From contig NZ_RHFG01000011.1 of the NCBI RefSeq assembly GCF_004745485.1, positions 1-64,000 of the forward strand: DNA of 64,000 nucleotides. Direction: 5' to 3'. The first letter of the stretch is position 1, and each line of letters begins with the position of its first letter. Shown here one piece after another: positions 20,468-55,952 of the stretch. The position numbers and the translations under genes are program-made. Source of the DNA: Brevibacterium sp. S22 (lineage in GTDB: Bacteria; Actinomycetota; Actinomycetes; Actinomycetales; Brevibacteriaceae). Under the pieces are notes generated by a model. That model had not been told where the DNA came from, made no database searches, and saw only the letters and a list, made by a program, of their open reading frames with translations.

Positions 20468-21346
20468 GTGATTTTAAGCGACGATGCGATACCCATGCGC
20501 TGGTGGGACTACACGAGGAACTTCGGCGACCTGCTTGGTCCGTGGCTCGTTCAACGAATGTCCGGCAGAGACATCAAGTGGGTTCCCCGCCATGAGCCGC
20601 ACTACATCACCGTAGGCTCCATTCTGGGCCACGTCCGGCCGTCCAGCGTCGTGTGGGGCGTCGGCTCCTTCGGCAGTGAAGGCGAGAAGAAGGTGACGAC
20701 CGGAAACAGGTATTTGGCCACCAGAGGGCCCCTGACAAGGGCTCGGCTGGAGATGTACAAGCAATCGTCCCCTCGCAACTATGGAGATCCGGCCCTGCTG
20801 GTCCCGGACCATCACCCGGCCTCTACTCAGCAGGACAGCAAGGTCGGTCTGATACTTCGGTGGTCGGAACGCGTGCGCAAACGGAATTTCGACGTCGACG
20901 GCGTACGCGTCATCGACCTGGAGACGGACAGCATCGAGGACACCCTGGATGCCATCACCTCATGCGAAGTGATCATATCGACGTCACTGCACGGACTCAT
21001 TCTCGCCGATGCTTACGGCATCCCCAACGCTTGGTTGATCGCAGACACCGGGTACGGCAAAGAGCACAAATTCTGGGACTACCTGCTTTCGGTCCGGAAG
21101 GAACGAGAACCGGTCGAAGCGGACATCACCGAAAAGGGAATGACCGTCAGCTCGTTCATGAATAGATTCTCCTTTGACGATCGCCCGATGAAGATCGACC
21201 TCGAGGCATTGAAAGCTTCCAATCCGTTCACCGGGAACTCGCCTCGGATCGCCGAAGCTGAGAAGGTCGCACTGACAGGAGCGGAAGAGATGGCCGCTCA
21301 AGGCCGCGTGGACCGGAAGAGCCTCCAGCCGCGCTACCTCAAGTAG
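20468..21346 (+). CDS. Polysaccharide pyruvyl transferase family protein
   Basis: A 292-residue protein with the family pattern: NFGDLLGPWLV near the start, RGPLTRARL, NYGDPALLVP in the middle and STSLHGLILADAYGIPNAWL near residue 175. These enzymes (CsaB, WcfO, ExoV types) transfer pyruvate from phosphoenolpyruvate to a sugar or polyol to make an acetal. GTG 20468 follows AGAGG. It is the first gene of the plus-strand arm of the glycopolymer locus and precedes two polymerase genes, which suggests it decorates the polymer. Confidence 0.85.
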   Translation: MILSDDAIPMRWWDYTRNFGDLLGPWLVQRMSGRDIKWVPRHEPHYITVGSILGHVRPSSVVWGVGSFGSEGEKKVTTGNRYLATRGPLTRARLEMYKQSSPRNYGDPALLVPDHHPASTQQDSKVGLILRWSERVRKRNFDVDGVRVIDLETDSIEDTLDAITSCEVIISTSLHGLILADAYGIPNAWLIADTGYGKEHKFWDYLLSVRKEREPVEADITEKGMTVSSFMNRFSFDDRPMKIDLEALKASNPFTGNSPRIAEAEKVALTGAEEMAAQGRVDRKSLQPRYLK

Positions 21347-21746
21347 CGCTTGAGCTTCCCACTCGATCTGGTCACACGGACTGCCGGAGATGCCCAGCCT
21401 CATGGCCCTTCTGGTGCCGGTGGCCTTCGGTCCCAACTCAGCCCTGCTGCCACTCGGCCCCATCACAGCCCTGCTGCGTGAACGCGATGTCGGAGCACCT
21501 GACTGACCTAGGCATGGACCGCATTCAGCGCCGAATCTCTGGTCGGAAGCTGACGAACGGCTTTGTTCTCCGAGCAGTGCGCTGATCGGAGTTGGCCTCG
21601 TCCCACTCGGCATCCTCGCCGATCCGCACGAAACATGTCATCGCCGGAATGAAGAAAGAGACGAAACGTTAGAATCGCATGGAACCCGATTCCAAACGGC
21701 CGCAACCGGACGGCAACCGTGATCACCCCAGCCGAAAGCACCAGCT
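21347..21746. other. 400-bp gap, no convincing gene
   Basis: A short plus-strand frame (from ATG 21391, MPSLMALLVPVAFGPNSALL, stop at about 21505) has a near-repeated AGCCCTGCTG sequence but no binding site or known family. The promoter of the following fusion gene is probably here; I found only TAGAAT at about 21670 without a good -35 box. Confidence 0.4.
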
Positions 21747-24700
21747 ATGACAAATGAGGACTCGCCCGTCACGATGTGGACGATGACTGGAACCCGCTTG
21801 GGAAGCTTTCTTGAGCACCGCGGCCAACTCGAAGCGGCCCTCTCGATCTATCGACGCACATGTTCCTCTCCGCCCACGCCTGGGGAGACGTTCGCCATCG
21901 GAAACTGCCTCTATCGGCTTGAACGATACAACGACGCCCTGCCTCTTCTCAGGACCTCCGCCCACGCAAGCGGGGCCACCGCTCAGCACATCAATCGATA
22001 TCTCAATGCCGTCGACTATGTAGGGGACTACGTGGGCGAACTCGACGAAGTGGGTGACGATTCCTCGCTCCGACCGCAACTGTTAAAACGATACGCCAGG
22101 CATCTGGAGAGGTCAGGCAACACCGAAACTGCGCTGGCCATATATCTGGCCTCCGACCAGTCCGACGATATCGACGTCCTCGACAAAATCTATGAGCTGA
22201 CCCCTTCCTCAGCGCCTGTCTGGCAACGCTTGGAACGGCACAACGCAACCGCTGTCCACCACCAACGGGACCCTGAGTGGCTGCGAAGGCGCGGAGAGTT
22301 GCTGTTCGAAGCTCACAAATTCTCTCAAGCAGGAGAGGTGTATGCCCAGCTGCTGGCGATAGACGATTCATCTTCATGGGACTCCTATAACGCGGGAATC
22401 AGCTTTGAGCTGGCGGGAGCACCCGCCTTTCAGAATCATTACGAACTCGCACGGAAACGCGATTCCTCGCTTGACGCCCAGACATATGGCATAGGTGTCT
22501 TCCACGAGAAGGCGCATCGTTACGAACGAGCCGGTCACGCATATCGGGCCCAAGCCGAGAAGACAATCTCTCCGTCGACCCGCACAGAGGTGCTGCGTCG
22601 AGCTGCGCTGGCATTCCAAGGCGCCTTCAATCTGAAAGAAGCGGAATCGGACGTCCTGCGGGCCATCGCACTGCGGCCTCGGAAGGCCGAGTTGCACGCT
22701 TTGCTTGCACTCAATTCCTATCTGCTCAATGAGTTCTCGGACGCAGCAGCCTCTGCTGCTCGGGCCCGGCAACTCGGTGACGCCAGCGCAGAGGTCAAGA
22801 ATCTACACTTCCTCAGCTGTGTCGGTACTGGGGACTTCGAAGGTGCGGTATTGTCCTTCCTCGACACGAGTATCGAAGCCCTTCTTGCCACGTTCGACAG
22901 GGTCCCTGACGATGGAGAATCAACTCTGGAAGCGATCAACACGCCAGAGGATCTCCCGGACATCGAGGCACATCGCCAATGGTCCCAGGTTCTGCTCGAC
23001 GCAGGACACACAGCTGCCTCCGCCGATGTCCTGACGAGCGGCATGGAACGCTATCAGGCGCACTTCGAACGTGCGGACGCGCTTAAGGCCGCCCGGGCGT
23101 TGCTAGCAACGGGCCGAGCCGAAAACGCGGCCCGCGTCATCCTCCAGTCGCTTCGCCACACCGATCCCGTCCCGAAGATCTATGACAATCCGAAAGTCCC
23201 AGGTCTGGGTACGATCTTTATGTATCGGGCGTGGCTGGACACCGAACCCGTTCGACCGAAGGACATCCTATTCGAGTCCAATCTCGGCCTGTCAATCGAC
23301 TGCAACCCGCTGGCTATCTACCGCCATATCCGTGACAACGAACCCAATGAATACACGTTCTACTGGGCTGTCGACAAGCAGGCAGCCGTCCCGACCGATG
23401 TCTGGCAGGACCCAAACACCATAATCGTCCGGAAAAACTCATCGCGCTACGTCAAGCTGCTTGCAACTGCCGGTTACCTGGTGAACAATTCAACTTTTCC
23501 TACCTACTATGTCCGCCGGAACGACCAGCAGTATCTGATGACCTGGCATGGCACGCCATTCAAGACGCTCGGGAAAGATCAACCCGAGATTCTCGGCCAT
23601 GCGAATATGTCCAGAAATCTCCTCCAGGCCTCTATCGTGCTGCATCCCAACAGTCACACGCAGCGTGTCCTCATGGAGAGCTGCGACGTCGCTGCGATCG
23701 CAACGGCACAGTCCGTGATCACGGGCTATCCCCGCAACGACGCTCTCACCTCCCGTACTGTAGGGACCAGACGGGACAGCGAGAAGCCGTTCGCCCTCTA
23801 TGCTCCGACGTGGAAGCCCGACACGGAATTGGCTGACCAAGCAGCTTCTGTCACCGAGGTGGTCAAGACTTTCAAAGCTCATGGATACGATGTCGCAGTT
23901 CGAGCCCATCACTACGTGGAAACGAAGCTCGCAGAACTCGCCCCGGACGTCAGCACCGTACCGAGGGACGTTCCGACGAATGACATCTTGCCCCAAGTCG
24001 ACGTGTTGGTCACTGACTATTCGAGCATCTACTTCGATTTCGCCGTTCTGCGTAGGCCGATCATCTTCTACGTACCCGATTGGTGTGGCTACACGTCTGC
24101 TCGCGGAGCCTACTTCGCGGAGGACCACCTTCCGGGACTCGTCTGCCGGACTTATGCGGAGCTGCAGCGGGCACCGGTGCGGCTGGAGACGCGCCCTGAC
24201 GAGGCCAGACCATCAGAAGCGTTTATCAAGGAGTTCGCCCCGTCGGACGACGGACAGGCAAGTGCCCGCGCAGCTGACCTGCTGCTCAGAGGGGACCATT
24301 GGGACATCGCCTCCGCCTCCGGCGCGACACCGAAGAAGGTATTATTTCGACAAAGCTTCATCCCTAATGGGATGACCTCGTCTTTCGTCAATCTGGCACG
24401 TTCTCTGCCCCGCGAGAAGTATCGTCCGTTCGCACTCACCGACGCAGTGGCAGCGCACTCAGACAAGGCGCGGGGCGAGATGGTCAGGTCGCTGCCACCC
24501 GATATCGGTGTCATCGGTCGAATCGGACGGCATGCCGTCTCGCGCAAGGAGCACCTCGCGCTCCACGCCATCTCCGGCGACTCTTCAGCGATCAGTGACG
24601 AAGCAAGGCGCATCCGCAGGGAGGCGTTCGAGTTCGAGGCTTCACGAGTGACAGGAGACGCCCAATTCGACGAAGTCATCGAATACGACGGCTATTCCTC

Positions 24701-25508
24701 GTTCATGGCCAATGTGGTTTTGGGACATGCCAAACGCACGCGGGTCACTGGCCTCCTTCTCCATTCGGACCTCAAACGCGAAGCGGCTCTGCGGTTTCCC
24801 GAAATCTACCGAATCGTCGACCAGATTTCCGACTTCGATCGCGTCGCCGCAGTCTCACCATCGCTGGCCGCGATCAACGAGGACGGGCTGCAGTCCCTCG
24901 GTGCGGGACAGTCAGTAATCGGTCATGTCCGGAACATCATCGACACCAATTCGATGACCAAGCAGGCTGCGGAACCAATTGCTCCTGACCTGCAAGGATT
25001 CGTGGAAGATTCCGACGATCTGATCGTCTCCCTTGGCCGGCTCTCCCCGGAGAAGAATCTCGCAGACACGATTCGCGCCTTCGCGAAGGTGCAGAGGGAC
25101 CGCTCCGACGCTCGCCTCCTCATCGTCGGGGACGGTCCGGAACGGGCGAAGCTGAGTGTCTTGGCGAACTCGCTGCTGCCCGAAGGGTCTTTCAGGTTCG
25201 CCGGTCACCGTAGCAACCCCTTCCCCTACCTGGCAGCCGCAGACGCACTCGTCATGTCGTCATTCCACGAGGGACAGCCGATGGTCATCCTGGAAGCACT
25301 GGCGCTGGACACCCCCACCGTAGCGATGCACATTCCGTCGCTCTCCGAGTTCGAAGACCTGTCCGGAGTCGTCGTCTCCGACTTCAACGTCGATTCGCTC
25401 GCAGCGAAGATCGGCTCGGTACTCTCAAATCCGCCTGCCGTCGATTTCGACCCAGCGGCATATGTCGAGGCAGCCCTCAGCGAATTCGACCTCACCTACG
25501 GACAGTGA
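21747..25508 (+). CDS. TPR - CDP-glycerol:poly(polyol phosphate) polymerase - GT4 fusion protein
   Basis: A 1253-residue protein with three parts. Residues 1-470 are helical repeats of TPR type. Residues about 500-850 are a Glyphos_transf (TagF/TagB) domain, with TWHGTPFKTLG near 598, YAPTW and TDYSSIYFDFAVLRRPIIFY near 755, as in teichoic acid polymerases that transfer glycerol- or ribitol-phosphate from the CDP-linked form. Residues 866-1253 are a GT4/GT-B glycosyltransferase with LGRLSPEKN (about 1095), GDGPER and the donor-binding EGQPMVILEALALDTPTVA. It should add polyol phosphate and a sugar to the same chain. No membrane helix is seen. The next polymerase gene follows about 100 bases later. 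Confidence 0.85.
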   Translation: MTNEDSPVTMWTMTGTRLGSFLEHRGQLEAALSIYRRTCSSPPTPGETFAIGNCLYRLERYNDALPLLRTSAHASGATAQHINRYLNAVDYVGDYVGELDEVGDDSSLRPQLLKRYARHLERSGNTETALAIYLASDQSDDIDVLDKIYELTPSSAPVWQRLERHNATAVHHQRDPEWLRRRGELLFEAHKFSQAGEVYAQLLAIDDSSSWDSYNAGISFELAGAPAFQNHYELARKRDSSLDAQTYGIGVFHEKAHRYERAGHAYRAQAEKTISPSTRTEVLRRAALAFQGAFNLKEAESDVLRAIALRPRKAELHALLALNSYLLNEFSDAAASAARARQLGDASAEVKNLHFLSCVGTGDFEGAVLSFLDTSIEALLATFDRVPDDGESTLEAINTPEDLPDIEAHRQWSQVLLDAGHTAASADVLTSGMERYQAHFERADALKAARALLATGRAENAARVILQSLRHTDPVPKIYDNPKVPGLGTIFMYRAWLDTEPVRPKDILFESNLGLSIDCNPLAIYRHIRDNEPNEYTFYWAVDKQAAVPTDVWQDPNTIIVRKNSSRYVKLLATAGYLVNNSTFPTYYVRRNDQQYLMTWHGTPFKTLGKDQPEILGHANMSRNLLQASIVLHPNSHTQRVLMESCDVAAIATAQSVITGYPRNDALTSRTVGTRRDSEKPFALYAPTWKPDTELADQAASVTEVVKTFKAHGYDVAVRAHHYVETKLAELAPDVSTVPRDVPTNDILPQVDVLVTDYSSIYFDFAVLRRPIIFYVPDWCGYTSARGAYFAEDHLPGLVCRTYAELQRAPVRLETRPDEARPSEAFIKEFAPSDDGQASARAADLLLRGDHWDIASASGATPKKVLFRQSFIPNGMTSSFVNLARSLPREKYRPFALTDAVAAHSDKARGEMVRSLPPDIGVIGRIGRHAVSRKEHLALHAISGDSSAISDEARRIRREAFEFEASRVTGDAQFDEVIEYDGYSSFMANVVLGHAKRTRVTGLLLHSDLKREAALRFPEIYRIVDQISDFDRVAAVSPSLAAINEDGLQSLGAGQSVIGHVRNIIDTNSMTKQAAEPIAPDLQGFVEDSDDLIVSLGRLSPEKNLADTIRAFAKVQRDRSDARLLIVGDGPERAKLSVLANSLLPEGSFRFAGHRSNPFPYLAAADALVMSSFHEGQPMVILEALALDTPTVAMHIPSLSEFEDLSGVVVSDFNVDSLAAKIGSVLSNPPAVDFDPAAYVEAALSEFDLTYGQ

Positions 25509-25604
25509 TGCCACTGTTTGCCAAAGGTCTTCGCCCGCGCACGAGCGCAGAACTCGTACGCAGCCGATCGGCGAATCCGACTGCTCTCGAATAAGGTGGA
25601 ATCT

Positions 25605-27236
25605 GTGAAGGACACGCAAGAGCAGAAGCACAGGGAACGATGGGGCAAGCGATGGCTCCGGACGGTCGCGGACAAGGAAGAGCGCAAACAGCTCTTCCAC
25701 GAGTTCCAACAGTCTGTCGCCGTTCACCCTGACCTCATCTTCTACGAGAGCATGTCCGGAGCGAAGATGATGGACAGTCCCTTCTCCATATTCGAGGACC
25801 TGTTCACCAGCACCCCGACCCACAGCGGCTATATTCACGTCTGGTCCGCGAGGTCTCAGGATGTCATACCACCACGGTACCGGGACCTCGATTCCGTCGT
25901 CACGGTGCGACGGCACACGCCGGCCTACTTCTACTATCTTGCGAGGGCCAAATACATCATCAGCAACTCGGCTCTGCCCGAATACTTCGTTCGTCGGTCC
26001 GAGCAGCGCTACCTCAATACATGGCACGGGATCGGCTACAAGACGCTAGGACGTACCGAGCGCAATCCCCTGGGGGCCGCTCTCGCGGTATCGAACATGT
26101 TGCAGGCAACACATGTGATCAGCCCCTGCGAGTTCATGACACGGATCCACCTGACCGGATTCTCTATGGCTCATATGTTCACCGGGAAGCTCGCCGAAAC
26201 AGGTTACCCTCGGATCGATACCACGTTGAATGCCACCGAGTCCGATAGAAACAACTTGCATTCGGTCTTGGGCTGCACCGCGGGGGAGCCTGTCGTCACT
26301 TATGCTCCGACGTGGAGAGGCGATGCTTTCGACGTCGACCGTCTGCGATCCGACTTGCACAATCTGGCGGAGCTCGACTGCACAGTCGTCTTCTTGGGAC
26401 ATCATCTGATGCTAAAGTACGTCAGCCCCGACGTCCTCGACGAAGTCGTTGTTCCTCCTGACTTCGTCAATACCAACCAGCTGCTGTCGATCACCGATGT
26501 TCTCATCACGGATTATTCGAGCATCTTCTTTGATTTCCTGGTTACCGGCCGCCCCATCGTCCACTATGTCTACGATTACGACGAGTACGCGACTAAACGT
26601 GGACTCAACCTCACGAAGGCCGAGCTACCTGGTCTCGTGACTTCCACCTCGGACGAACTCATCACCGCGGTGTCCTCGTTCCTGTCCGCACGGCCTGATC
26701 TTACCGACGACTATCGTGACCACTTGGTTCGGTTCAACCCGCATGACACCGGCGACTGCACTCGACGAGTCGTCGAATGGTTCCTCCGCGATCGCACTAC
26801 TCATGTCCGTCAGCTCGAGGGGATCGATGAACGCCCCCGAGTCATCTTCTGGGGCGGGCGTCTCGGCTCCGGCGAGGAGCTCGACACCTATTTCAAAGAG
26901 GTGAAAGCACTCGCGGGCAATGACGACATCGATGTGTCGCTGTTCGTCTCTCGATCGGTGCGCAAAAACCAAGCCGCCATTGAGTGGATCCGCAACCTGG
27001 GATCATCGATCTCCATCATCGTTCGCGACGAGTACTCATTCGGAATGACCACAGACGAACGAGCAGCGCGCGAAGTGCCGGCGGCGCAACGGTCCAGTCT
27101 GGAAGAGTCTGCTTACGACAGAATCTATCAGAGGGAATACCGACGGATGTTCGGCGATACACGCTTCGACGAGGTCCGTCTCTTCCCTGGCCTCTCACAT
27201 TTCTGGAAGCGTCTATCCCAGGATGCATTCAAGTGA
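25605..27236 (+). CDS. CDP-glycerol glycerophosphotransferase family polymerase
   Basis: A 543-residue Glyphos_transf protein with YLNTWHGIGYKTLGR near residue 137, TYAPTWRGDAFD, and TDYSSIFFDFLVTGRPIVHY near residue 300. These motifs contain the catalytic histidines of the TagF class. I chose GTG 25605 because AAGGTGG stands at proper distance; the longer reading from TTG 25518 lacks a site. It adds a polyol phosphate unit to a lipid-linked acceptor at the membrane's inner face. The C-terminal 100 residues are an unassigned mixed region. It converges with the XcbB-type gene with 15 bases between the stops. Confidence 0.85.
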   Translation: MKDTQEQKHRERWGKRWLRTVADKEERKQLFHEFQQSVAVHPDLIFYESMSGAKMMDSPFSIFEDLFTSTPTHSGYIHVWSARSQDVIPPRYRDLDSVVTVRRHTPAYFYYLARAKYIISNSALPEYFVRRSEQRYLNTWHGIGYKTLGRTERNPLGAALAVSNMLQATHVISPCEFMTRIHLTGFSMAHMFTGKLAETGYPRIDTTLNATESDRNNLHSVLGCTAGEPVVTYAPTWRGDAFDVDRLRSDLHNLAELDCTVVFLGHHLMLKYVSPDVLDEVVVPPDFVNTNQLLSITDVLITDYSSIFFDFLVTGRPIVHYVYDYDEYATKRGLNLTKAELPGLVTSTSDELITAVSSFLSARPDLTDDYRDHLVRFNPHDTGDCTRRVVEWFLRDRTTHVRQLEGIDERPRVIFWGGRLGSGEELDTYFKEVKALAGNDDIDVSLFVSRSVRKNQAAIEWIRNLGSSISIIVRDEYSFGMTTDERAAREVPAAQRSSLEESAYDRIYQREYRRMFGDTRFDEVRLFPGLSHFWKRLSQDAFK

Positions 27237-27251
27237 ACGTCCGCACAGATT

Positions 27252-46369: not shown

Positions 46370-47222
46370 TGCCGCACTCAGCGAAGAGCCCCCATTCGAG
46401 CGACTGGGCACATTGCTGCCCGGAGACCGCATCGAGCGACGCCCCGGTCTCTTCCAACGCTTCGATTTCCACGCCGGAACGGTGACGGTTCCCGCGCTCC
46501 TGTGGTCACGGGTCGAGCCGACCGGCCGTCTCGTCATCGCCTTCAACGGAGCAGTCCGGAGGACACCGGGGAAGGATCCGCAGGAGATCTTCCAACGGCG
46601 GACCTGGGTCGACGACTTCGACGCCGATGTCCTCTTCATCTCCGATCCGACGCTGCGCACGGACAATCAGATCAGCATCGGGTGGGGGCAAGGTGCTCCC
46701 GGCCGCTTTGCGCTGCCCGCGATGGCCCAGACGGCCCGTTTCGTCGCGGAGTGTCTCGAGGTTCCGTCGGCTGCTCGCCTGTATTTCGGGACCAGCGCGG
46801 GAGGCTTCCAGGCTCTCCAAGCAGCCGCCCGCGACGAGGGCAGCCGTGCCTTGGTGAACAACCCGCAGATCGACTGGACGAAGTACATCCCGGTGTACGT
46901 CACAACGATCGCCCGCCAGATCTATGAGGGTGCGACTCCAGAAGAGACGGCGGAGAACTTCCCGGACAGGACGTCGACCGCTCACGCCTTCGCCGAGTTC
47001 GGGCATATCCCCCGAACTCGCTGCCTGCTCAATGCCGCCAGCGAGAACGATGCCCTCGCGCAGCTGCCCGCGCTTGTCGACGCTCTGCCCGCTCAGTCCG
47101 GTGAACGATCCTGTTTTGATGTATCGCTGTATTCCGACGTCCGCGGCGGTCACAATCCACTGTCCAAAGCCGCCACCGCCGCGGCCGTCAACGCTATCGT
47201 CAGCGAGGCCGCGGATGAGTGA
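46362..47222 (+). CDS. Alpha/beta-hydrolase-like protein of the glycopolymer locus (paralogue A)
   Basis: A 286-residue protein from ATG 46362 (an in-frame ATG at 46350 would add four residues). It carries a nucleophile-elbow motif LYFGTSAGGFQAL near residue 145, VNNPQIDW after it, and a late GGHNPLS which could provide the histidine. It shares LFISDPTL, IGWGQG and FGxSxGGF with the protein at 51245-52033, so the two are paralogues. No signal peptide is seen. It overlaps the upstream gene by 8 bases and the downstream one by 8. A chain-modifying esterase or acyltransferase is possible but unproven. Confidence 0.7.
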   Translation: MSDAALSEEPPFERLGTLLPGDRIERRPGLFQRFDFHAGTVTVPALLWSRVEPTGRLVIAFNGAVRRTPGKDPQEIFQRRTWVDDFDADVLFISDPTLRTDNQISIGWGQGAPGRFALPAMAQTARFVAECLEVPSAARLYFGTSAGGFQALQAAARDEGSRALVNNPQIDWTKYIPVYVTTIARQIYEGATPEETAENFPDRTSTAHAFAEFGHIPRTRCLLNAASENDALAQLPALVDALPAQSGERSCFDVSLYSDVRGGHNPLSKAATAAAVNAIVSEAADE

Positions 47223-49815
47223 ACGGATCGAAGTCGACACCCGTGAACCAGCACCTGAACCTGTGTTGGAGTCCGTTCCTGCCGTCGAATCCTTGAGTGA
47301 GAGCAGCCGAACCGACCGCGTCCCCGCTGAGAATCCGATTGTCGACGGCATCGCAGCTGCCGCTCGACTGCTGTCCGAGCATTCCGATGACCTGGAGACG
47401 GCCGCGCGGAAGATCAGCTCAGTACTCAACGGTCTGACGTCTTCGGCAACGGTCTGCCGGATTCTCTTCCACACTGCGGTGGCCGAAGGTTCATCGCTGC
47501 GATCGCGGTTCGTCGCTGACCTGTTGGCCAGCAACGGCCGTGCCCAGCTGGCACGTCTGCTGGCTGATCAGGCGATCGCAACTGGGGCGAAGCCATGGCA
47601 GAGGAGACGGCTGGAGTCCCTCATGCAGGATGCTCCGAACAGCGACTTCGGTGAGGGCGCCCGCCGATCCTTCGACCTGACCATCTCAGCTGACGGAACG
47701 ACCACGCTCGAGTCAACAGGGTCGGATGCGGAGCCGGCGGCTGAGCACGAGCTGCGTTCCGTCACCCGCTCTCTCGGTGCGGATACAGACTGGCTCGCCG
47801 AACTTGTCTGCGCCCTCGATGACACCCCCGTCGGCATTCAGCACGATGTCGTCTGCATCCGCATTGCCTCGACTGAGTTCGCACGCCAAGCGCTGACACC
47901 GGTGCTTGAGACCCTCGCGATCCTGCCCGTCGTACCGATCCTCGTCGCCGAGTCTGTCGCGGCAGCACTGTCGACCTCTGACTCGGTGGGTCGGCCCCTC
48001 CTCGACCGAGCTCGAGCCGTTCTGCTCACACCGAACCGATCAGGACAGCAGACGATCATCTCGATCCGCGGCTCCGAACTGCTCGACGCCGGACCGAGCT
48101 CGGACCTCGTCCTACCGACGGATGTCGATATCCAAGCGCTGGGAGCCGCCCTCGGGCTGACGACCATCGTCGAGTCACCTGTGCTGGCCAAACACGTACG
48201 CACGGTCGTCGACTCTCTTCGGATCGAATCATCCCGACTGCTGCCCCTGTCCTCTGCGACCAGAGCGTTCGCCCGGCTGCTACGGTTCCGGGGAACGCGA
48301 CGGCAGAACGCTCCGGTTCGCAATATTCTGACCGGACACCTTCTGGCCGCCGGCTTCTTTGCTGAGGCCATGGCTCTCGTCGATACCGTGCCGCCCTCCG
48401 ACCGCGGGAAGGTCTACCGCGCGCGACGCATCCGTGCTCTCTTCGGAACGGGACGCTTCGACGAGGTCGCCGACACTGCCGATTCCGCGACCGCATCCGC
48501 CGCGGACCGACCTCTCATCAGCGAGTCGGCAGCCGCCTCGGCGATGCTGCGCGAGCTAGAATCCGTGTCCGAGAACACCTCGGTGCCGTTCGAGCCCGTG
48601 CCCGGGAGGATCCTCACCATCCTCCACGCGAGCGCACCGGACCAGAGCGGCGGCTACGCGGTTCGCGCACACAGCGTCCTCAAGACCATCGCCGCAGGCG
48701 GCTTCGAGGTCATCGCTCTCACCCGCCCGGGCTTTCCCGAGGCAGCGAACTCGTTGGAACCGGGGGCCACCGCCGAGGTGGTTCACGACGGGATCCGCTA
48801 CCTTCGCCTGGGCAGCGATTCCGCCCGCGCCGATGGTGAGTTCGCGTACATGTGTGAGGCCATCGACCATTTCGCCGAGGTGATCCGCGGGGAACGACCG
48901 TCGGCCGTCCATCTGCGTTCGACCTATGTTTCGGCTCTGCCGGGGCTCATCGCAGCCAAACGCTTCGGCCTGCCCGTCGTCTACGAGGTCTCGGGCATGT
49001 GGGAACTCGTCTACGAGGCCGCGAACACCGCCCGGATGGAGGGCCGTCGTGCACGCACCGTGGTGCTGGAGAACGCAGTGTTGGAGCATTGCGACGAAGT
49101 CCTCACCATCACCGAGGCGATGCGCGACATCATCAGCGACAGAGTGCACACTCGACGCCCGATCGGCATCATGCCCAATGCCGTCGATACGGCCGAGTTC
49201 GCGTCTGCAGAGAAGAACCCGCAGGTGATCTCGCGATTCGATTGGAGCGCCCACGACCCGATCATCGGATACATCGGCACGTTCGTCGGCTACGAGGGTC
49301 TCGACATCCTCGTTCGCGCCATCGCTCTCGTCCGCAGCCGCGGAGTCCTGGTGCGCGCACTGCTCGTCGGAGACGGCGCAGAGTCGTCCCGGATCCGGTC
49401 GCTGGCAGCCGATCTCGGCCTCGACGAATCGACCATCGTCTTCACCGGGCGCGTCTCCCATGACGAGGTCGCCGAGCTCTATTCGGTCATCGATGTCTGC
49501 GCCTATCCGCGCCTGCTCACCCCGGCGACCCGCGCGGTCTCACCGCTCAAACCTTTCGAGGCGATGGCAGCGAAGAAGTCCGTCATCGTCTCCGACGTCC
49601 CGGCCCTGGCGGAGATCGCCGGATACGGCGAGCGCGGTCTCGTTGTGCCCAGCGGTGACGTCGAGGCTCTCGCCGAGGCGATCAGCGCAGCCATCGAGGA
49701 TCCTTCCGCGACGCTGTCACGGGTGGAGGCCGCGGCCGCATGGACGGAATCGGAGCGCAGTTGGTCGGCGGTCGGTGCGGTCATGGGATCGGCGCTCGCT
49801 AGGCTGACGTCATGA
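47215..49815 (+). CDS. GT4-family glycosyltransferase with long N-terminal region
   Basis: An 866-residue protein; ATG 47215 overlaps the hydrolase-like stop by 8 bases. Residues 1-460 are an unassigned, mostly helical region. The acceptor part opens with ILTILHASAPDQSGGYAVRA (about 463), then YEVSGMWELVYEAAN. The donor part has GTFVGYEGLDILVRAIAL, LLVGDGAESSRIR, VFTGRVSHDEV and KPFEAMAAKKSVIVSD. It is related to the enzyme at 34989-36722 in the other operon. The donor sugar cannot be told. Confidence 0.83.
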   Translation: MSERIEVDTREPAPEPVLESVPAVESLSESSRTDRVPAENPIVDGIAAAARLLSEHSDDLETAARKISSVLNGLTSSATVCRILFHTAVAEGSSLRSRFVADLLASNGRAQLARLLADQAIATGAKPWQRRRLESLMQDAPNSDFGEGARRSFDLTISADGTTTLESTGSDAEPAAEHELRSVTRSLGADTDWLAELVCALDDTPVGIQHDVVCIRIASTEFARQALTPVLETLAILPVVPILVAESVAAALSTSDSVGRPLLDRARAVLLTPNRSGQQTIISIRGSELLDAGPSSDLVLPTDVDIQALGAALGLTTIVESPVLAKHVRTVVDSLRIESSRLLPLSSATRAFARLLRFRGTRRQNAPVRNILTGHLLAAGFFAEAMALVDTVPPSDRGKVYRARRIRALFGTGRFDEVADTADSATASAADRPLISESAAASAMLRELESVSENTSVPFEPVPGRILTILHASAPDQSGGYAVRAHSVLKTIAAGGFEVIALTRPGFPEAANSLEPGATAEVVHDGIRYLRLGSDSARADGEFAYMCEAIDHFAEVIRGERPSAVHLRSTYVSALPGLIAAKRFGLPVVYEVSGMWELVYEAANTARMEGRRARTVVLENAVLEHCDEVLTITEAMRDIISDRVHTRRPIGIMPNAVDTAEFASAEKNPQVISRFDWSAHDPIIGYIGTFVGYEGLDILVRAIALVRSRGVLVRALLVGDGAESSRIRSLAADLGLDESTIVFTGRVSHDEVAELYSVIDVCAYPRLLTPATRAVSPLKPFEAMAAKKSVIVSDVPALAEIAGYGERGLVVPSGDVEALAEAISAAIEDPSATLSRVEAAAAWTESERSWSAVGAVMGSALARLTS

Positions 49816-51221
49816 CACGGACGATGCTGTTCTACGGGCATGTCGCCTCGAACTGGGGCGACCTAGCCATCAATGCCGGTGCCCTCGAACTGATGCGCCG
49901 GGCCGAGGTCGACATCGAAGGCTCGACGGCTGTTCTCCTCGCTCCTTCGGACCAGTTCCGCAGGCAGGCGGGCTTCACCCTCAAGGGCATGAAGCAGCTG
50001 ATCGTTCCCTCTGACGGCCGTGCACGCGGTGGCCGTGACGAGGTCGAACTGCTCATCGACTATGTCGCTCATCCGCACCGGTTCGCCGAAGATGTCGGTA
50101 TGGCCGATGTCGACCTCGTCGTCCTCAACGCCGGCGAGCATCTCTTCGAGTCGGCGACCGGAGAGAACCTCATCGACCTCGTGTGGAGGATCCTCCCCGC
50201 ACTGGCCGCGCAGTCGCTGAAGAAACCAGTCCTCCTGCTGCCGTCGACCGTCGGCCCGTTCCGCACATCGTTCGGGACCGCGCTCGAGGAGTTCCTCCAC
50301 CAGGGCGTCGACGCAGCAGCTTACCGTGATCTCGAGTCCCGGAGACTCGAGTCGCCCGACCTCGGTCAGGAGCTTCCGGTTCTCCTGGATCCCGGCTTCT
50401 TCGTGCCGGGACTTCGGGCTCAAGAGGAAGAGAACCGCGACGAGGATGCCCTTGGCATCGTCTTGCGGCCCGAGGACATGGGGATCCGACCAGGGTCACG
50501 CCGTTCGGCATTCGTGCAGAACAAACTCCGAGACTCGCAGTTCCGCAGCTCTCAGGCGTTCCAACTCTTCACCTCGGTGGCCGAAGCCCATCTGGCCGAT
50601 GGAGGAAAGGTGAAGGTCATCGTCCAGACCCGAGCCGACCGGGGAATCTCCACGGCGGTCGCCGATCATCTCACCGAGGTCGCCGGTTCGGACTGGGTCG
50701 AACTCATCGATCCGACTGGGTTCCGGTCGTTCGTCGACGAGCTCGGCCGCCTTGGTGCTTTGGTGACGTCACGCTTCCATTCGGTCATCCTCGCCTCGTC
50801 TCAGGCGGTGCCGACCGTGGGCGTGTATTCGGAGACGCACGGACACAAGATGCCCGGGCTGTTCGAGCTGCTCAAATTTCCCGACTGCGCCGTGCGTCTG
50901 GATGACCGCAGCATCTCGGCAGTGCGCGACGAAGTCGACGCGGCGCTGTCCACGGTCCGCGGCTCCATCGACGAGATCCACAATCGGATCCGGGCGAACA
51001 GAACCCTGGTCCGTCGCTGGTTCGCCGAGGCGATCGCCTCGCAGGAGACGACGATATTCGACACGTCTGCACTGAGGATCGAGGCGTTGGCGCTGCTCTA
51101 TCGGGCAGGGCTCGAACGCGCGCAGAAGGAATCACTGTCCCAAGTGCTGCAGGCAGTTCACGAACTGCGTGACGCCGACAGCCGCTCAGATGACAATGCA
51201 CCCGGCGCAGAGTCGCGCTGA
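49812..51221 (+). CDS. Polysaccharide pyruvyl transferase family protein (second copy)
   Basis: A 469-residue protein, longer than the copy at 20468. Family features are NWGDLAINAGALELM at the start, VVLNAGEHLFE, LLLPSTVGPF, LPVLLDPGFFV in the middle and SRFHSVILASSQAVPTVGVY near residue 320. The last 100 residues are an added helical tail. It should put a pyruvate acetal on a sugar or polyol. The ATGA overlap with the GT4 gene before it supports joint use of the two enzymes. Confidence 0.83.
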   Translation: MTRTMLFYGHVASNWGDLAINAGALELMRRAEVDIEGSTAVLLAPSDQFRRQAGFTLKGMKQLIVPSDGRARGGRDEVELLIDYVAHPHRFAEDVGMADVDLVVLNAGEHLFESATGENLIDLVWRILPALAAQSLKKPVLLLPSTVGPFRTSFGTALEEFLHQGVDAAAYRDLESRRLESPDLGQELPVLLDPGFFVPGLRAQEEENRDEDALGIVLRPEDMGIRPGSRRSAFVQNKLRDSQFRSSQAFQLFTSVAEAHLADGGKVKVIVQTRADRGISTAVADHLTEVAGSDWVELIDPTGFRSFVDELGRLGALVTSRFHSVILASSQAVPTVGVYSETHGHKMPGLFELLKFPDCAVRLDDRSISAVRDEVDAALSTVRGSIDEIHNRIRANRTLVRRWFAEAIASQETTIFDTSALRIEALALLYRAGLERAQKESLSQVLQAVHELRDADSRSDDNAPGAESR

Positions 51222-51244
51222 GAACGACCCGAGGAGCTGAAGAG

Positions 51245-52033
51245 ATGATCGAACGCACCATCCCCGAGGAGGGGCACCACCACGCCGAATCGGTGGCGGC
51301 GTTCACCGGGCCCCAGCCGGGCGCCTCGACGACGTACACGATCATGCTCGATGACGTCCCCATCGATCTGCGTTACGACGATCGCGGATTCGACACCACC
51401 GTCGTCTTCTTCCATGCCGCGATCACGAAGGCGGTGCGTCGATACCCGGTGTTCTCCGGGGCCACGTTCTCCGAAGACGTCGCTGCGAATCGTCTGTTCA
51501 TCAGCGACCCTTCTCTCTACGTCGATTCCCGAATCAAGCTCGGCTGGTACGCCGGCAGCAGTCGGCAGCCGAAGCTGCAGGACGCATTGACTGAGATCAT
51601 CTCCAGATTCGACAGTCCGGATCGTCGGCTCGTCTTCTTCGGTGCTTCCGGTGGAGGATTCGCCTCTCTCTATTACTCCACGCACTTTCCCGGGTCGATC
51701 GCTGTTCCGGTCAACCCGCAGACGACGATCCGCAACTATGTGCCGGTCATCGTCAACCGGTACCTCAACTATGCGTGGGACGGACTGCCCGTCGACGAGC
51801 TGCCGGTGTGCACCGATGTCATCAAGCTCTACCGTCGTCCCGTGTCCAATTCGGTTCTCTATGTGCAGAACTCCGGCGACAGCGATCATTTGGAGCACCA
51901 CTATGCGCCGTTCTTCGATGCGCTGCCGGACGATCACCAGGTGGAGTCCCACCTCGTCGATGCCGGTGAAGGCCATGTTCCGCCGAAGCGTGCCCTGTTG
52001 GGCACGATCCTCAAGGACGTCGTCGGCAGCTGA
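51245..52033 (+). CDS. Alpha/beta-hydrolase-like protein of the glycopolymer locus (paralogue B)
   Basis: A 262-residue protein starting at ATG 51245 after GAGGAG. It has LVFFGASGGGFASLYYSTHF around residue 130, PVNPQTTIRNYVPVIVNRY after it, and DAGEGHVPPK near the end with a likely catalytic His. The shared FISDPSL, LGWYAGS and FGASGGGF motifs tie it to the protein at 46362-47222. It is last in the plus-strand operon and converges on the rhamnosyltransferase gene with 6 bases between stops. Function unproven. Confidence 0.7.
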   Translation: MIERTIPEEGHHHAESVAAFTGPQPGASTTYTIMLDDVPIDLRYDDRGFDTTVVFFHAAITKAVRRYPVFSGATFSEDVAANRLFISDPSLYVDSRIKLGWYAGSSRQPKLQDALTEIISRFDSPDRRLVFFGASGGGFASLYYSTHFPGSIAVPVNPQTTIRNYVPVIVNRYLNYAWDGLPVDELPVCTDVIKLYRRPVSNSVLYVQNSGDSDHLEHHYAPFFDALPDDHQVESHLVDAGEGHVPPKRALLGTILKDVVGS

Positions 52034-52039
52034 GAACCC

Positions 52040-53215
52040 TCAGGTGATGGTGAGGCGGAACGGGAGCGTATTGGCCGCGGTGTCGCCGGAAAACTGACGC
52101 AGTTCGACCGACCATTTCGACGCTCGGAAGTTCTGACGGATCGACCAGCTGCCGTCCTCGGCGCATTCTGCCGATCCCATGTGCTTGAAGTCGTTTTTGC
52201 CCTTCAACCAGAGTTCGATGCGGCTGCCGGGTGTGCCGACTCCGATGAATTCGGTGGCGCCGGCTTTCCGCGCTTTGCCCGGCAGGGGCGAACGCAGGTA
52301 GAAGAACGGTTCGCTCTGTCCGAAGATGTCGGAGTTGATGCGGATGCACTTCTGCTTGAGCATACGCGTCCGACGGTGCAGATCGAGCAGAGCGTACTGC
52401 TGCGGCTGGGTGCGACGCCACGTCAGACCCATCGTCTCCGGGGTTGCTTCGTGTTCGACGACGCTGGCTTGGAACGCTTCGAGGTCGATGCCGAACGGTT
52501 TGAGATCCGTTTGGGTGAGCGGGCGCATGGAGTCGCCGAATTGGGCGATCCGCGAGTCGTAGTCCCCGTCGCCTTGCCGATGGTAGAGGTAGAGCCAGTC
52601 ATCGGTGTCGGTCTCGACTCGGTGGGCCAGTCCCCCGCGCTGAACCGCGGTGGTCAGCCATTTCCGGTGGGAGGAGAGCATGAGGTCGCCGACGTCGGTC
52701 GCTGAACCGAAGAAGGTCGAGTTCGGGACGTGGCTGGGGTAGATCAGCTCGCCTCGGTTGCCGCGCGGTGCGTCGATGCCGACGCCTTTCGCGGTCGTGG
52801 CTACCTGCGCCCCGGCAACATCCGGTTCGAAGGCCTCGAGGTGGGCGTCGTGCAATCGGGCCGAGATCGCATCGTCGTCATCGAGCAGCTGGGCGTGGAG
52901 GGGACGCTTCGGGTGCGTCTCCGCCTTGAGTGCCGCGCGCACGGTGTCGCCGAGGCGGGAGTGATCCGGGACGAAGTGGAAGCGAACCGTGTCGGTGAGT
53001 CCGTGGGCGTCGATGACGTCGTGGACATCGCCGAGGATGTCCGGCGGCAGGTCCGAGTCGAGCAGGATGGCCCACACCAGGTCTCGGTTGCCCATCGCGG
53101 CCACGCTGGCGGCGGTGATGCTGCTGAAGAGTCCGAGTCGGGTTCGCCACCAGACGGGGTCGAAGATGCCCACACCCATGCGGGTCACCATCACGGTGCG
53201 CGTTTGAACTGCCAC
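52040..53215 (-). CDS. Putative rhamnosyltransferase-family glycosyltransferase
   Basis: A 391-residue protein matching the uncharacterised putative rhamnosyl transferase family (GT-A-like): an N-terminal TRMGVGIFDPVWWRTRLGLF, ILLDSDLPPDI and the metal-site-like LLDDDDAISARLH. The C-terminal 100 residues look like a beta-rich add-on. It begins 11 bases after the wecB stop, so both are one unit. The start GTG 53215 has a weak site, and ATG 53191 or 53179 are alternatives. A role in adding rhamnose is implied only by the family name. Confidence 0.7.
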   Translation of the reverse strand: MAVQTRTVMVTRMGVGIFDPVWWRTRLGLFSSITAASVAAMGNRDLVWAILLDSDLPPDILGDVHDVIDAHGLTDTVRFHFVPDHSRLGDTVRAALKAETHPKRPLHAQLLDDDDAISARLHDAHLEAFEPDVAGAQVATTAKGVGIDAPRGNRGELIYPSHVPNSTFFGSATDVGDLMLSSHRKWLTTAVQRGGLAHRVETDTDDWLYLYHRQGDGDYDSRIAQFGDSMRPLTQTDLKPFGIDLEAFQASVVEHEATPETMGLTWRRTQPQQYALLDLHRRTRMLKQKCIRINSDIFGQSEPFFYLRSPLPGKARKAGATEFIGVGTPGSRIELWLKGKNDFKHMGSAECAEDGSWSIRQNFRASKWSVELRQFSGDTAANTLPFRLTIT

Positions 53216-53226
53216 GATCGTCGCCG

Positions 53227-54390
53227 TCAGTCGGCGAAGGCGACGTCTGGGGCGAATTCCGCTATGCGGTCGCCGACGCCGAGCAGCGATTCGATGGCTG
53301 CGACCGACCGGGCGGCGGCTCGTCCGTCACCGTAGGGGTTGACGGCTTTGGCCATGGCTTCGTAGGCGAGCGCGTCGTCGAAGAGTCGGGAGACTTCGGT
53401 GACGATCACGGTGGTGTCGGTGCCGACGAGTTTGACCGAACCGGCGGTGACCGCCTCGGGGCGTTCGGTGTTCTCGCGCATGACGAGGACGGGTTTGCCG
53501 AGGCTGGGGGCTTCTTCCTGGATGCCGCCGGAGTCGGTGAGGACGACGTCCGAGGCGGCCATGACCGTGGTGAATTCGCCGTAGGACAGCGGTTCGGTGA
53601 CGAGCACGTTGTCGAACTTCTCGACTCGGGGCAGAACGGCTTCGCGCACGAGCGGGTTGCGGTGGGCAGGGAGCAGGATGAGCAGTTCTGGTCGGGCAGC
53701 GGCGAGCTGGGCCAGCGCGTCTCCGATGTTCTCCATGGACGAGCCGAGGTTCTCCCGACGGTGGGTCGTCACGAGCAGTTTCGGGCGGTCGGAGGCGACA
53801 TAGTCGGCGACGATCGGGTCGGCCGGGGCCACGTTCATGTCGACGGCGATGTGGAGGGCGTCGATGACGGTGTTTCCGGTGACGACGACGTCGGCCGGAT
53901 TGATGCTCTCGGCCAGCAGGTTGTCACGTGACCGTGCGGTCGGGGCCAGGTGGAGTGCGGAGATCTGGCTGGTCAGCTTCCGGTTGGCTTCCTCGGGGAA
54001 GGGGCTGAGCAGGTTCCCCGAGCGCAGTCCGGCCTCGAGGTGGATGACCGGGATGCCGCGGTTGAAGGCGGCGATGGAGGCGCCCATGACTGTGGTCGTA
54101 TCGCCTTGGACGAGCACTGCGTCGGGTGCCTCGTCTTCCAGCACGGAGTCGAGTTCACCGATGACACGGGAGGCGATCCCGTTGAGTGTCTGCCCCTGGG
54201 ACATGATGTTGAGGTCCACGTTCGGGACGATTCCGAACAGATCGTTGACCTGGTCGAGCATCTCACGATGCTGGGCGGTGACGACGGTGCGGGAGTGCAG
54301 GGTCGCGCTCGATTCGATCGCCCGGATGAGAGGGGCCACCTTGATGGCTTCCGGCCTGGTGCCGAAAACGGTGAGGACAGTGGGGGTCAC
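53227..54390 (-). CDS. wecB: UDP-N-acetylglucosamine 2-epimerase (non-hydrolysing)
   Basis: A 387-residue protein. The start GTG 54390 has CAGGAG seven bases upstream and gives VTPTVLTVFGTRPEAIKVAP, the normal N-terminus; longer readings to 54513 are not supported. Family motifs are HLEAGLRSG, VTTHRRENLG, LPAHRNP and TDSGGIQEEAPSLGKPVLVM. The enzyme interconverts UDP-GlcNAc and UDP-ManNAc. With the divergent wecC it can provide UDP-ManNAcA, or UDP-ManNAc for a teichoic acid linkage unit. Confidence 0.93.
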   Translation of the reverse strand: MTPTVLTVFGTRPEAIKVAPLIRAIESSATLHSRTVVTAQHREMLDQVNDLFGIVPNVDLNIMSQGQTLNGIASRVIGELDSVLEDEAPDAVLVQGDTTTVMGASIAAFNRGIPVIHLEAGLRSGNLLSPFPEEANRKLTSQISALHLAPTARSRDNLLAESINPADVVVTGNTVIDALHIAVDMNVAPADPIVADYVASDRPKLLVTTHRRENLGSSMENIGDALAQLAAARPELLILLPAHRNPLVREAVLPRVEKFDNVLVTEPLSYGEFTTVMAASDVVLTDSGGIQEEAPSLGKPVLVMRENTERPEAVTAGSVKLVGTDTTVIVTEVSRLFDDALAYEAMAKAVNPYGDGRAAARSVAAIESLLGVGDRIAEFAPDVAFAD

Positions 54391-54692
54391 GCACGAACTC
54401 CTGGTCGGGAGAACCACGGGGGCCGCCTCGGCGAGGCAGGGTTCTCGCATCAAATACCGATGAAGATAATGGTATGAAGTTCTGCTGAACTTGGACATAC
54501 CGTCTCCATTCATCTCATCATGACGAACCCACCTTCGCTGACCGAATCAGAAGACCTTCACAGCGCATTCACTCAAAGTTGATGATGAAGTCACGTCAGC
54601 GGTCATTTCGTGAGTCATTGTGGTCAGGTTGCCTCGAGAAGCTCTCGGGTAACATCAGTAGTCGTTCATCTCGAGTTTGGAGCATCGCACAC
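54391..54692. promoter_or_regulatory. Divergent promoter region between wecB and wecC
   Basis: A 302-bp region between divergent starts. It holds the small palindrome CGAGAAGCTCTCG (54635-54647) and, overlapping it, a loose pair TTGCCT and TAACAT with a 15-bp spacer, which is too short for confidence. Shared control of the two genes is likely from layout. Confidence 0.35.
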
Positions 54693-55952
54693 ATGCCGCC
54701 CACCGCCACCTCTCAACGCCCTTCCGTCGCTGTCGTCGGCCTCGGTTATATCGGTCTTCCGACCGCAGCTGTTCTGGCCAGTTCGGGCGCAGAGGTCGTC
54801 GGTGTCGACATCAACGCCGATGCCGTGGCCACGATCAACGCCGGCAAAGTTCCCTTTGTGGAGCCGGATATGGCGACAACGGTGGCCGGTGTCGTCTCTC
54901 AGGGCTACCTGCGAGCCACGACCGAGACTCCGCACGCGGACAATTACATCGTCGCCGTGCCGACGCCGTTCAAGGACGGGCACGAACCGGACCTGTCTTA
55001 CATCGAGACTGCGGGTAAGCAGATTGCACCCCTGCTCGAGGGCAATGAGCTCATCATTCTCGAATCGACTTCGCCTCCCGGAGCAACGGAGTTCCTGGCC
55101 GAGACGATCATCAAGGAACGCCCGGATCTCACGCTCAAACCCGGCAGCGCACAGACCGTCTACTTCGCGCACTGCCCTGAGCGCGTGCTGCCCGGCCGGA
55201 TCATGATCGAGCTGCGGACCAACGATCGCATCGTCGGCACCCTCAACGGCAATGCCGGCGAACGTGCCCGCGATCTCTATGAGCTGTTCTGCGAGGGCGA
55301 GTTCCTCATGACCGATGCTCGTACCGCGGAGATGGCGAAGCTGACCGAGAACGCCTACCGCGACGTGAATATCGCCTTCGCGAACGAACTGTCGGTGATC
55401 TCCGACGGGCTCGACATCAACGTGTGGGAGCTCATCAAGCTCGCCAACCACCACCCTCGCGTCAACATCCTGCAGCCTGGCCCCGGAGTGGGCGGCCACT
55501 GCATCGCCGTCGACCCGTGGTTCATCGTCTCCACCGCGCCCGAGCAGTCTTCACTGATCCGCACAGCGCGTGAGGTCAACGATTCGAAGCCAGGCTACGT
55601 GCTCGACAAGCTCCTCCCTCAGGCACGTCGGATCCAGGATGTGCAGATCGCGGCACTTGGTCTGGCGTTCAAGCCGAACATCGACGACCTGCGCGAGAGC
55701 CCGGCCCGGCAGATCGTTGGACAGCTCGCCGATGCGCTCCCCAACGCGAACATCATGGCGGTCGAGCCGAACATCGACAACCTGCCTTCGGAACTCGAAG
55801 AGTGCGAGAACGTCACGCTCACTGAGGTGAACGAAGCCATTCGCGCTGCCGATATCGTGCTGCTGCTCGTTGACCACAACGAATTCACCCGCATCGACCG
55901 GACCCTGCTCACGCAGAAGATCGTCCACGATACGCGGGGCGTCTGGGGCTGA
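54693..55952 (+). CDS. wecC: UDP-N-acetyl-D-mannosamine dehydrogenase
   Basis: A 419-residue protein from ATG 54693 (TGGAG upstream), giving the Rossmann motif VAVVGLGYIGLPTAAVLA. The middle region has PERVLPGR and AELAKLTENAYRDVNIAFAN-type sequence. The active-site Cys lies in GPGVGGHCIAVDPWF, which fits the UDP-ManNAc 6-dehydrogenase branch. It makes UDP-ManNAcA with two NAD+. It faces wecB. A strong bidirectional hairpin follows. Confidence 0.92.
   Translation: MPPTATSQRPSVAVVGLGYIGLPTAAVLASSGAEVVGVDINADAVATINAGKVPFVEPDMATTVAGVVSQGYLRATTETPHADNYIVAVPTPFKDGHEPDLSYIETAGKQIAPLLEGNELIILESTSPPGATEFLAETIIKERPDLTLKPGSAQTVYFAHCPERVLPGRIMIELRTNDRIVGTLNGNAGERARDLYELFCEGEFLMTDARTAEMAKLTENAYRDVNIAFANELSVISDGLDINVWELIKLANHHPRVNILQPGPGVGGHCIAVDPWFIVSTAPEQSSLIRTAREVNDSKPGYVLDKLLPQARRIQDVQIAALGLAFKPNIDDLRESPARQIVGQLADALPNANIMAVEPNIDNLPSELEECENVTLTEVNEAIRAADIVLLLVDHNEFTRIDRTLLTQKIVHDTRGVWG

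Follow-up and report, generated by a model that had tools for sequence, protein, structure and literature searches.

Brevibacterium sp. S22 carries a large glycopolymer locus whose encoded enzymes would make and export an anionic wall teichoic acid of type II, with a backbone of alternating sugar and glycerol phosphate units that carries side chains and pyruvate ketals. We hold this reading with moderate confidence, and the evidence obtained for it consists of domains, homology, catalytic motifs, synteny and the exchange of a polymerase slot between related loci. The window, the 64,000-nucleotide stretch analysed here, covers the first 64 kb of C5 (129,152 bases), one of the 72 contigs of a 4.5-Mb genome. 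Pfam and NCBIfam scans of the window proteins place the locus between an LCP gene starting at position 18550 and a wecC gene ending at 55952. The original prediction had started it at 20468; since an orthologue of the LCP gene (18550-19473) adjoins the syntenic locus in relatives, the start was moved to this gene. The predicted gene content was confirmed, namely three PF04464 genes (two of them fusions), a TagG/TagH exporter, a TagO-like starter, a CapD-like dehydratase, two pyruvyltransferases and several glycosyltransferases (GTs), and was extended by four overlooked genes for an XcbB/CpsF-family protein, a DUF6270 protein, WecB and the UDP (uridine diphosphate)-ManNAc dehydrogenase WecC. 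A polymerase, a TagO-type starter and a TagGH-type exporter co-occur in the window, as expected of a type II wall teichoic acid locus.

An alternating polymer is indicated by Pol1 (1253 amino acids, aa; 21747-25508, plus strand; PF04464 228 bits, PF00534 95 bits), which consists of a putative TPR-like N-terminus, a TagF-like polyol-phosphate transferase domain and a C-terminal GT-B glycosyltransferase domain. Pol1 is a polymerase of the Cps3D type, and published passages on Cps3D, the capsule polymerase of Actinobacillus pleuropneumoniae, report that it alternates glycerol-3-phosphate and galactose (PMC11666461). Residues 374-1135 of Cps3D (8qoy_A) align with residues 492-1247 of Pol1 (E = 3.7e-114), so that both catalytic domains are covered; the Pol1 N-terminus lies outside this alignment. 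TPR matches in Pol1 stay below the Pfam cut-off; they exceed it in the homologues of stretches L020, L036 and L044, and the L039 homologue has none. In a residue alignment, both catalytic histidines of TagF, the first in the TWHG motif (H444) and the second at H584, have counterparts in Pol1, and the GRxSxEK motif of its GT-B domain aligns with Cps3D. Pol1 and seven homologues (n = 8) all share WHGTP, the second histidine and the R and K of GRxSxEK without variation. According to passages of PMC5974469, mutants showed that Cps7D and Cps1B need their paired histidines and that Cps7D also needs an arginine and a lysine of its GT-B domain. The R and K of GRxSxEK were assigned by motif and by spacing (TarM R326 and K331), without a residue alignment to Cps7D. 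The predicted alternating, decorated repeat unit is thus well supported for one polymerase, Pol1, by its alignment over both catalytic domains of Cps3D. The description of the fused polymerases as unusual was too strong, since both layouts have been described and studied experimentally in Gram-negative capsules: TagF-like/GT-B enzymes are reported to make alpha-linked poly(glycosylpolyol phosphate), and GT-A/TagF-like fusions beta-linked poly(oligosaccharide phosphate) (passages of PMC5974469).

The adjoining gene encodes Pol2 (572 aa; 25518-27236, plus strand; PF04464 239 bits), which contains a TagF-like domain and the N-terminal half of a GT-B domain. The second half of GT-B enzymes binds the sugar donor. 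Pol2 matches Cps3D (8qoy_A) at residues 366-879 only (E = 5.8e-84), that is, over the TagF-like domain and the first GT-B half, and without the second half it is unlikely to act as a glycosyltransferase; we propose that it is a primer or transition transferase. In Cps3D, the C-terminal domain of the GT-B part is reported to comprise residues 948-1119 (passages of PMC11666461). The possibility that Pol2 is a frame-truncated gene was dropped, as copies in the loci of five relatives are of similar length (577-641 aa).

The third polymerase, Pol3 (1172 aa; 28424-31942, minus strand; PF00535 118 bits, PF04464 199 bits), has the GT-A/TagF-like layout, with an N-terminal GT2 domain (GT-A, DAD motif) and a C-terminal TagF-like domain, separated by a middle region whose roughly 600 residues match no family. 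It retains the DxD motif (D137-A-D139) and both TagF-like histidines (H911 and H1041), and its structure matches include TagF (3l7i, E = 8.5e-49) and chondroitin synthase (2z86, E = 1.4e-20). We propose that Pol3 is the conserved core polymerase or linker enzyme of the locus.

The role proposed for Pol3 draws on the comparison across the genus, for which 57 genomes were sampled and the core was counted by Pol3 orthologues, the S22 genome included; 21 stretches were compared for synteny, among them L020 of Brevibacterium sp. RIT 803 (genome G044), and the gene content of the window itself was taken from the family scans of its proteins. Near full-length Pol3 orthologues, 60-78% identical, were found in 11 other genomes, which puts the core in 12 of 57. 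Genes for DUF6270, TagH and the GT4 enzyme GT4a accompany Pol3 in all 12 core loci, TagG in 11 (it was not seen in G024), and an LCP gene in seven, some stretches ending too early to judge. The slot was defined as the polymerase nearest to the Pol3 core, within 3 kb. By Pfam it holds a second GT2-TagF protein of about 1240 aa in eight of the 12 (L033, L034, L035, L037, L038, L040, L041 and L043) and a TagF-GT-B protein in the other four (the window, L020, L036 and L039). Two genomes with a divergent Pol3 (37-38%) were excluded from the 12; their slots hold a TagF-GT-B protein (G054) and a GT2-TagF protein (G023). Pairwise identities among the 12 genomes are 76-98% for TagH and 57-79% for Pol3, and range from 18 to 78% for the slot proteins, never exceeding 25% between the two slot types.

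On a tree of Pol3 with 12 tips, the slot type requires four changes, at least three of which are forced by well-supported branches, several forks being weak. The slot labels are no more clustered on this tree than shuffled labels, all 500 of 500 shuffles being as low. The pattern fits repeated polymerase exchange, like serotype exchange, but on a tree of 12 tips only. The window and RIT 803 are 78% identical in Pol1, 81% in Pol2 and about 80% in the XcbB-family protein, but only 66% in Pol3. The Pol3 proteins closest to that of the window (76-78%) come from G009, G016, G036 and G018, in which the slot is occupied by GT2-TagF, except in G036, whose slot holds a TagF-GT-B protein that shares only 34% identity with Pol1. 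In RIT 803, a frame change apparently divides xcbB (L020:15400-16800) in two. Upstream of Pol1 in RIT 803 lies a transposase gene of the IS110 type (L020:8635-9564), at the place taken in the window by the pyruvyltransferase gene PyrT1; it is possible that this transposase was an agent of cassette exchange.

The TagF-GT-B fusions also occur outside the Pol3 core. In locus B of G003, G009, G044 and G056 (four of four), a TagF-GT-B protein of about 900 aa is encoded beside homologues of Pol2 and XcbB, and both seem to travel with TagF-GT-B polymerases. Of the four locus-A slots with TagF-GT-B, however, those of G036 and G006 had no Pol2 in the stretch compared. A further polymerase layout is given by tandem double-PF04464 proteins of about 1000-1300 aa (L046:3136-6564 in G003 and L048:3925-7389 in G056), which were also found in G016, G019, G027, G028, G030, G036, G037 and G054; in G003 and G056 these genes are close to genes shared with a second teichoic-acid-type locus on contig C37 of S22, described below.

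Taken together, these comparisons let us put forward, tentatively and with less assurance than the type II product itself, that a fixed core of Pol3, DUF6270 and TagGH takes polymerases of two folds, giving a serotype-like switch between an alpha-linked glycosyl-glycerol-phosphate and a beta-linked sugar- or polyol-phosphate backbone, and that the TagF-GT-B fusions are the missing Gram-positive type II polymerases. The place of the polymerase near Pol3 is an exchangeable slot, so that the backbones built on this common core probably differ between relatives. If the published rule for GT-A fusions applies, sugar-phosphate would be the group moved by Pol3 and by the GT2-TagF proteins of the slot, and slot exchange would consequently change the backbone chemistry and not only the anomer. 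Applying this rule for GT-B and GT-A fusions from Gram-negative capsules to the present locus is an extrapolation. The same rule lends itself to another reading, in which two polymers share one exporter, Pol1 (with Pol2 and the XcbB-family protein) making an alpha-linked glycosyl-glycerol-phosphate polymer, and a beta-linked poly(oligosaccharide phosphate) coming from Pol3. In favour of it, the key motifs of both domains are intact in either fusion, passages of PMC5974469 tie GT-A/TagF-like enzymes to sugar-phosphate polymers, and two GT2-TagF polymerases lie at most 2.4 kb apart in eight of the 12 core loci. However, Pol3 is kept while its neighbour is exchanged, which better fits a shared linker role, and a single exporter would have to serve both products. 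We regard two separate polymers as unlikely, though as the strongest of the alternatives.

TagF-GT-B fusions are present in at least 17 of the 57 genus genomes. In the order, a profile built from eight fusions gave near full-length matches in 15 of 248 genomes, eight of them outside the genus, with four candidates scored per genome. At the level of the phylum, with two candidates scored per genome and strict thresholds, both a search at E = 1e-60 and a profile search returned only the S22 genome among 396, which is weak evidence on spread. Among the stretches outside the genus, L062 (another genus of the same order) carries TagH-, TagD-, Pol1-, Pol3-, WecC- and LCP-like genes within 20 kb, and L068 contains TagG-, AT3- and pyruvyltransferase-like genes besides a TagH-like neighbour. 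L064 and L065 show weak TagH-like matches only (25-34%), and the other four show none, L067 being just 7.4 kb long.

The original prediction assigned to this locus a polymer of the poly(polyol phosphate) kind reported from Brevibacterium; that the locus alone makes this polymer is not supported by the distribution of precursor genes. In searches of the S22 genome, PF01467, PF01128 and PF03808 had no match inside the window. The only TagD of the genome is encoded on C37 (29,985 bases; TIGR01518 equivalog 209.8 bits, cut-off 165.4), and the other three of its four PF01467 genes are NadD, CoaD and RibF according to NCBIfam. The seven PF04464 matches of the genome are divided between the window (three) and C37 (four, of which two are full and two weak). 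C37 further encodes a pyruvyltransferase of 584 aa and an IspD-type gene adjoining an extended SDR, and its 592-aa PF04464 protein best resembles TarL (NF041713, 314 bits, below the cut-off of 1000). Passages of PMC10918830 propose that such a pair of IspD-family and SDR neighbours makes CDP (cytidine diphosphate)-glucitol or CDP-mannitol, and C37 has the corresponding arrangement of a PF01128 cytidylyltransferase next to a PF01370 reductase. The best Protein Data Bank matches of the C37 IspD-type protein are IspD and ribitol-5-phosphate cytidylyltransferases; the SDR matches the CDP-6-glucitol synthase 8v4g (4.9e-31), with the UDP-glucuronate decarboxylase 2b69 scoring higher. The housekeeping IspD is encoded by a fused IspD/IspF gene on C46. 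A complete single pathway inside the window was dropped as an explanation because TagD and the IspD-type gene sit on C37, and so was a TagA/WecG-type linkage unit (the classical GlcNAc-ManNAc), since PF03808 (TagA/WecG) had no match in the whole genome, with a positive Bacillus subtilis control.

C37 encodes two related proteins of 433 and 448 aa (L008:10364-11665 and L009:915-2261) that match PF04464 weakly (36 and 46 bits) and have relatives in three other genomes (G003, G009 and G056), in loci of the C37 type, as well as an 884-aa protein (L008:13618-16272) that has no Pfam match and is kept in the C37-type locus of G003, G009, G044 and G056. A serine recombinase gene (L009:7385-9562) lies near the C37 end, some 5 kb beyond the last gene of the teichoic-acid type.

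These findings bear on a second alternative, that the pyruvylated poly(polyol phosphate) known from Brevibacterium, with mannitol or glycerol, is the product of the window locus, whose fused GTs would add side chains only. A review reports one pyruvylated mannitol teichoic acid and one pyruvylated glycerol teichoic acid in the wall of Brevibacterium iodinum, and the window holds two pyruvyltransferases and three TagF-like genes. Against this stand the CDP-mannitol-type pair, TagD, the TarL-like polymerase and another pyruvyltransferase on C37. The IspD, SDR and TarL-like set recurs in locus B of two of the four related genomes (G003 and G009), and none was found in G056 (40 kb) or G044 (20 kb). 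Pol1, moreover, is homologous to an alternating polymerase and not to a side-chain enzyme. Given the two B. iodinum polymers, C37 is the better candidate for plain polyol-phosphate polymers, which probably belong to its locus, and their production by the window locus appears improbable. If glycerol is used by the window locus, it would have to borrow CDP-glycerol from C37.

For the type II wall teichoic acid that we favour, we infer donor substrates, linkages, order of steps and wall attachment as follows. The TagO-like enzyme would begin synthesis on the lipid carrier; the two GT4 enzymes would build the linkage unit, to which Pol3 would add a conserved linker or first unit, consisting of a sugar plus polyol-phosphate or sugar-phosphate. 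Pol2 would prime the chain by adding polyol-phosphate only, and Pol1 would then alternate glycerol-3-phosphate (TagF-like domain) and an alpha-linked sugar (GT-B domain), as Cps3D does, with CDP-glycerol supplied by TagD on C37. The polymer would be decorated by the GTs of the right arm, by UDP-ManNAcA (UDP-N-acetylmannosaminuronic acid) from WecB and WecC and by the pyruvyltransferases, exported by TagGH and, as we propose, attached to peptidoglycan by the LCP protein.

Several observations weigh against this scheme. The published Cps7D GT-B mutants, R1123 and K1132, are spaced unlike the R and K of GRxSxEK, the spacing of which fits TarM R326 and K331, and we cannot be sure that these are the same residues. 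As the GT-A/TagF-like enzymes studied in passages of PMC5974469 make poly(oligosaccharide phosphate) and move sugar-phosphate, not glycerol-phosphate, Pol3 may not use CDP-glycerol, and Pol1 and Pol3 could make separate polymers. The donor specificity of TagF-like domains is not readable from sequence, and CDP-mannitol is a possible donor. AlphaFold models of Pol3 and the XcbB-family protein had a predicted local distance difference test (pLDDT) score of 30.8 and 38.2 from alignments of two and three rows, respectively, too poor for use. Wall attachment depends on one LCP gene, in which the TIGR00350 domain scores 51.5 bits, below the cut-off of 62.3. Outside the genus, TagH-like neighbours of more than 40% identity accompany the fusion in only two of eight stretches (L062 and L068). 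Finally, the review describes the glycerol teichoic acid of B. iodinum as a 1,3-poly(glycerol phosphate) bearing GalNAc in side chains, not as a type II backbone.

The remaining genes are arranged in divergent arms. PyrT1, Pol1 and Pol2 form the left arm on the plus strand, downstream of the LCP-family (LytR_cpsA_psr) glycopolymer transferase gene (plus strand, PF03816 50 bits). PyrT1 (20468-21346; PF04230 47.7 bits) is a pyruvyltransferase gene in a variable region, with homologues 46% identical in G024 and G054; like the second pyruvyltransferase of the window it exceeds the PF04230 cut-off of 25.3 bits. The middle block, on the minus strand, begins with the XcbB/CpsF-family gene (27252-28286; NF033892 293.5 bits, cut-off 125), whose product has a nucleophile-like GASKGG motif. 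Pol3 is followed by the core genes for DUF6270 (31939-32820; PF19786 182 bits), the TagH-type ABC exporter ATPase (32817-34124; PF00005), which in NCBIfam comes closest to teichoic-acid export ATPases (166 bits, below cut-off), and the TagG-type ABC2 permease (34111-35055; PF01061 37.7 bits). The block continues with GT4a (34989-36722; PF13692/PF00534), a second GT4 (36719-38119; PF13692/PF13579), the TagO/WecA-type polyprenyl-phosphate glycosyl-1-phosphate transferase (38077-39114; PF00953 92 bits) and the CapD/PglF-type sugar-nucleotide 4,6-dehydratase (39114-41009; PF02719 297 bits, PF13727 39 bits). The guanine plus cytosine fraction of the genes is 0.57-0.61 from PyrT1 to TagG, compared with 0.61-0.65 from GT4a onward.

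The right arm, on the plus strand, contains two large GTs, a two-domain enzyme of 674 aa (41158-43182; PF13524 and GT2) and a GT2 enzyme of 877 aa (43736-46369; PF00535 81 bits), followed by a hydrolase-like gene (46362-47222; GTSAGG motif, no family match) with a 60% identical counterpart in RIT 803. The stp3-like GT4 gene that comes next (47215-49815; PF13692 98 bits) had been a 963-aa reading frame beginning at 46924; it probably starts at 47215, because the hydrolase-like frame overlaps its upstream part. PyrT2 (49812-51221; PF04230 55 bits) and a second hydrolase-like gene (51245-52033; GASGGG motif, no family match) complete the arm. The three hydrolase-like proteins of the window, including that of the XcbB family, each have a G-x-S-x-G-G motif, and the two of the right arm are 20-29% identical to the XcbB-family protein in global alignments without a significance test; acyl transfer or ester removal on the polymer is a possible function. 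At the far right end, a putative glycosyltransferase gene with a weak Rhamno_transf match (52040-53215; PF11316 35.6 bits) and the UDP-GlcNAc 2-epimerase gene wecB/mnaA (53227-54513; TIGR00236 443 bits) lie on the minus strand, followed on the plus strand by the UDP-ManNAc 6-dehydrogenase gene wecC (54579-55952; NF008286 580 bits, cut-off 459), a source of UDP-ManNAcA. WecB, WecC, the many GTs of the right arm and an XcbB/CpsF family named for capsule loci could also indicate a capsule or a phosphate-free, teichuronic acid-like polymer with ManNAcA, for which the TagF-like genes supply a short linker only, but this is very improbable given three TagF-like domains, one of them within a Cps3D-type polymerase, and no Wzy-type family among the 30 window proteins scanned, a scan that membrane proteins may escape.

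Compared with Cps3D and Cps7D, Pol1 has the same order of TagF-like and GT-B domains, behind a possible TPR-like region, with both catalytic domains aligned and key residues kept. In contrast to these enzymes of a Kdo (3-deoxy-D-manno-oct-2-ulosonic acid)-lipid group 2 capsule system, it occurs in a Gram-positive genus beside TagGH, TagO and LCP genes and has as partners the half-GT-B protein Pol2 and a GT-A/TagF protein that is conserved. The Cps1B/CslB type described in passages of PMC5974469 has its GT-A domain at the N-terminus and its TagF-like domain at the C-terminus, an arrangement shared by Pol3 and by the slot proteins of eight relatives, but Pol3 differs by its middle region without a family match. 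The same passages describe strains of one species, Bibersteinia trehalosi, that carry either TagF-like/GT-B or GT-A/TagF-like polymerases; those are capsule loci of one Gram-negative species, whereas here the exchange concerns species of a Gram-positive genus, and the Brevibacterium slot adjoins a conserved second polymerase and teichoic-acid export genes. With the type I wall teichoic acid machinery (TagO, TagGH, TagF and TarL; 3l7i) the locus shares a TagO-like starter, a TagGH-type exporter, TagF-like domains and LCP; it differs in that the genome has no WecG/TagA match, the polymerases are fused to GTs and the cytidylyltransferase is on another contig. The mannitol and glycerol teichoic acids of B. 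iodinum and B. permense, for which structures only are available, agree in genus, pyruvate ketals and polyol phosphate, but fit the C37 locus better than that of the window. Streptomyces SCO2578, considered as a possible TagF-like precedent, was dropped, as the published passages show an LCP protein.

Among the literature matches listed, none links Brevibacterium genes to the B. iodinum or B. permense teichoic acids, proposes a type II wall teichoic acid gene locus in Brevibacterium or describes a wall teichoic acid locus with a polymerase slot of this exchangeable kind. According to passages of PMC5974469, little was known of type II wall teichoic acid synthesis in 2018, and the involvement of TagF-like fusions was posed as a question. 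The present locus bears on this question: it encodes a polymerase of the Cps3D type next to starter and export genes of the teichoic-acid kind, in a genus whose wall polymers have been solved chemically. The type of polymerase in the slot would predict which Brevibacterium species have alpha-linked glycerol-phosphate backbones and which have beta-linked ones.

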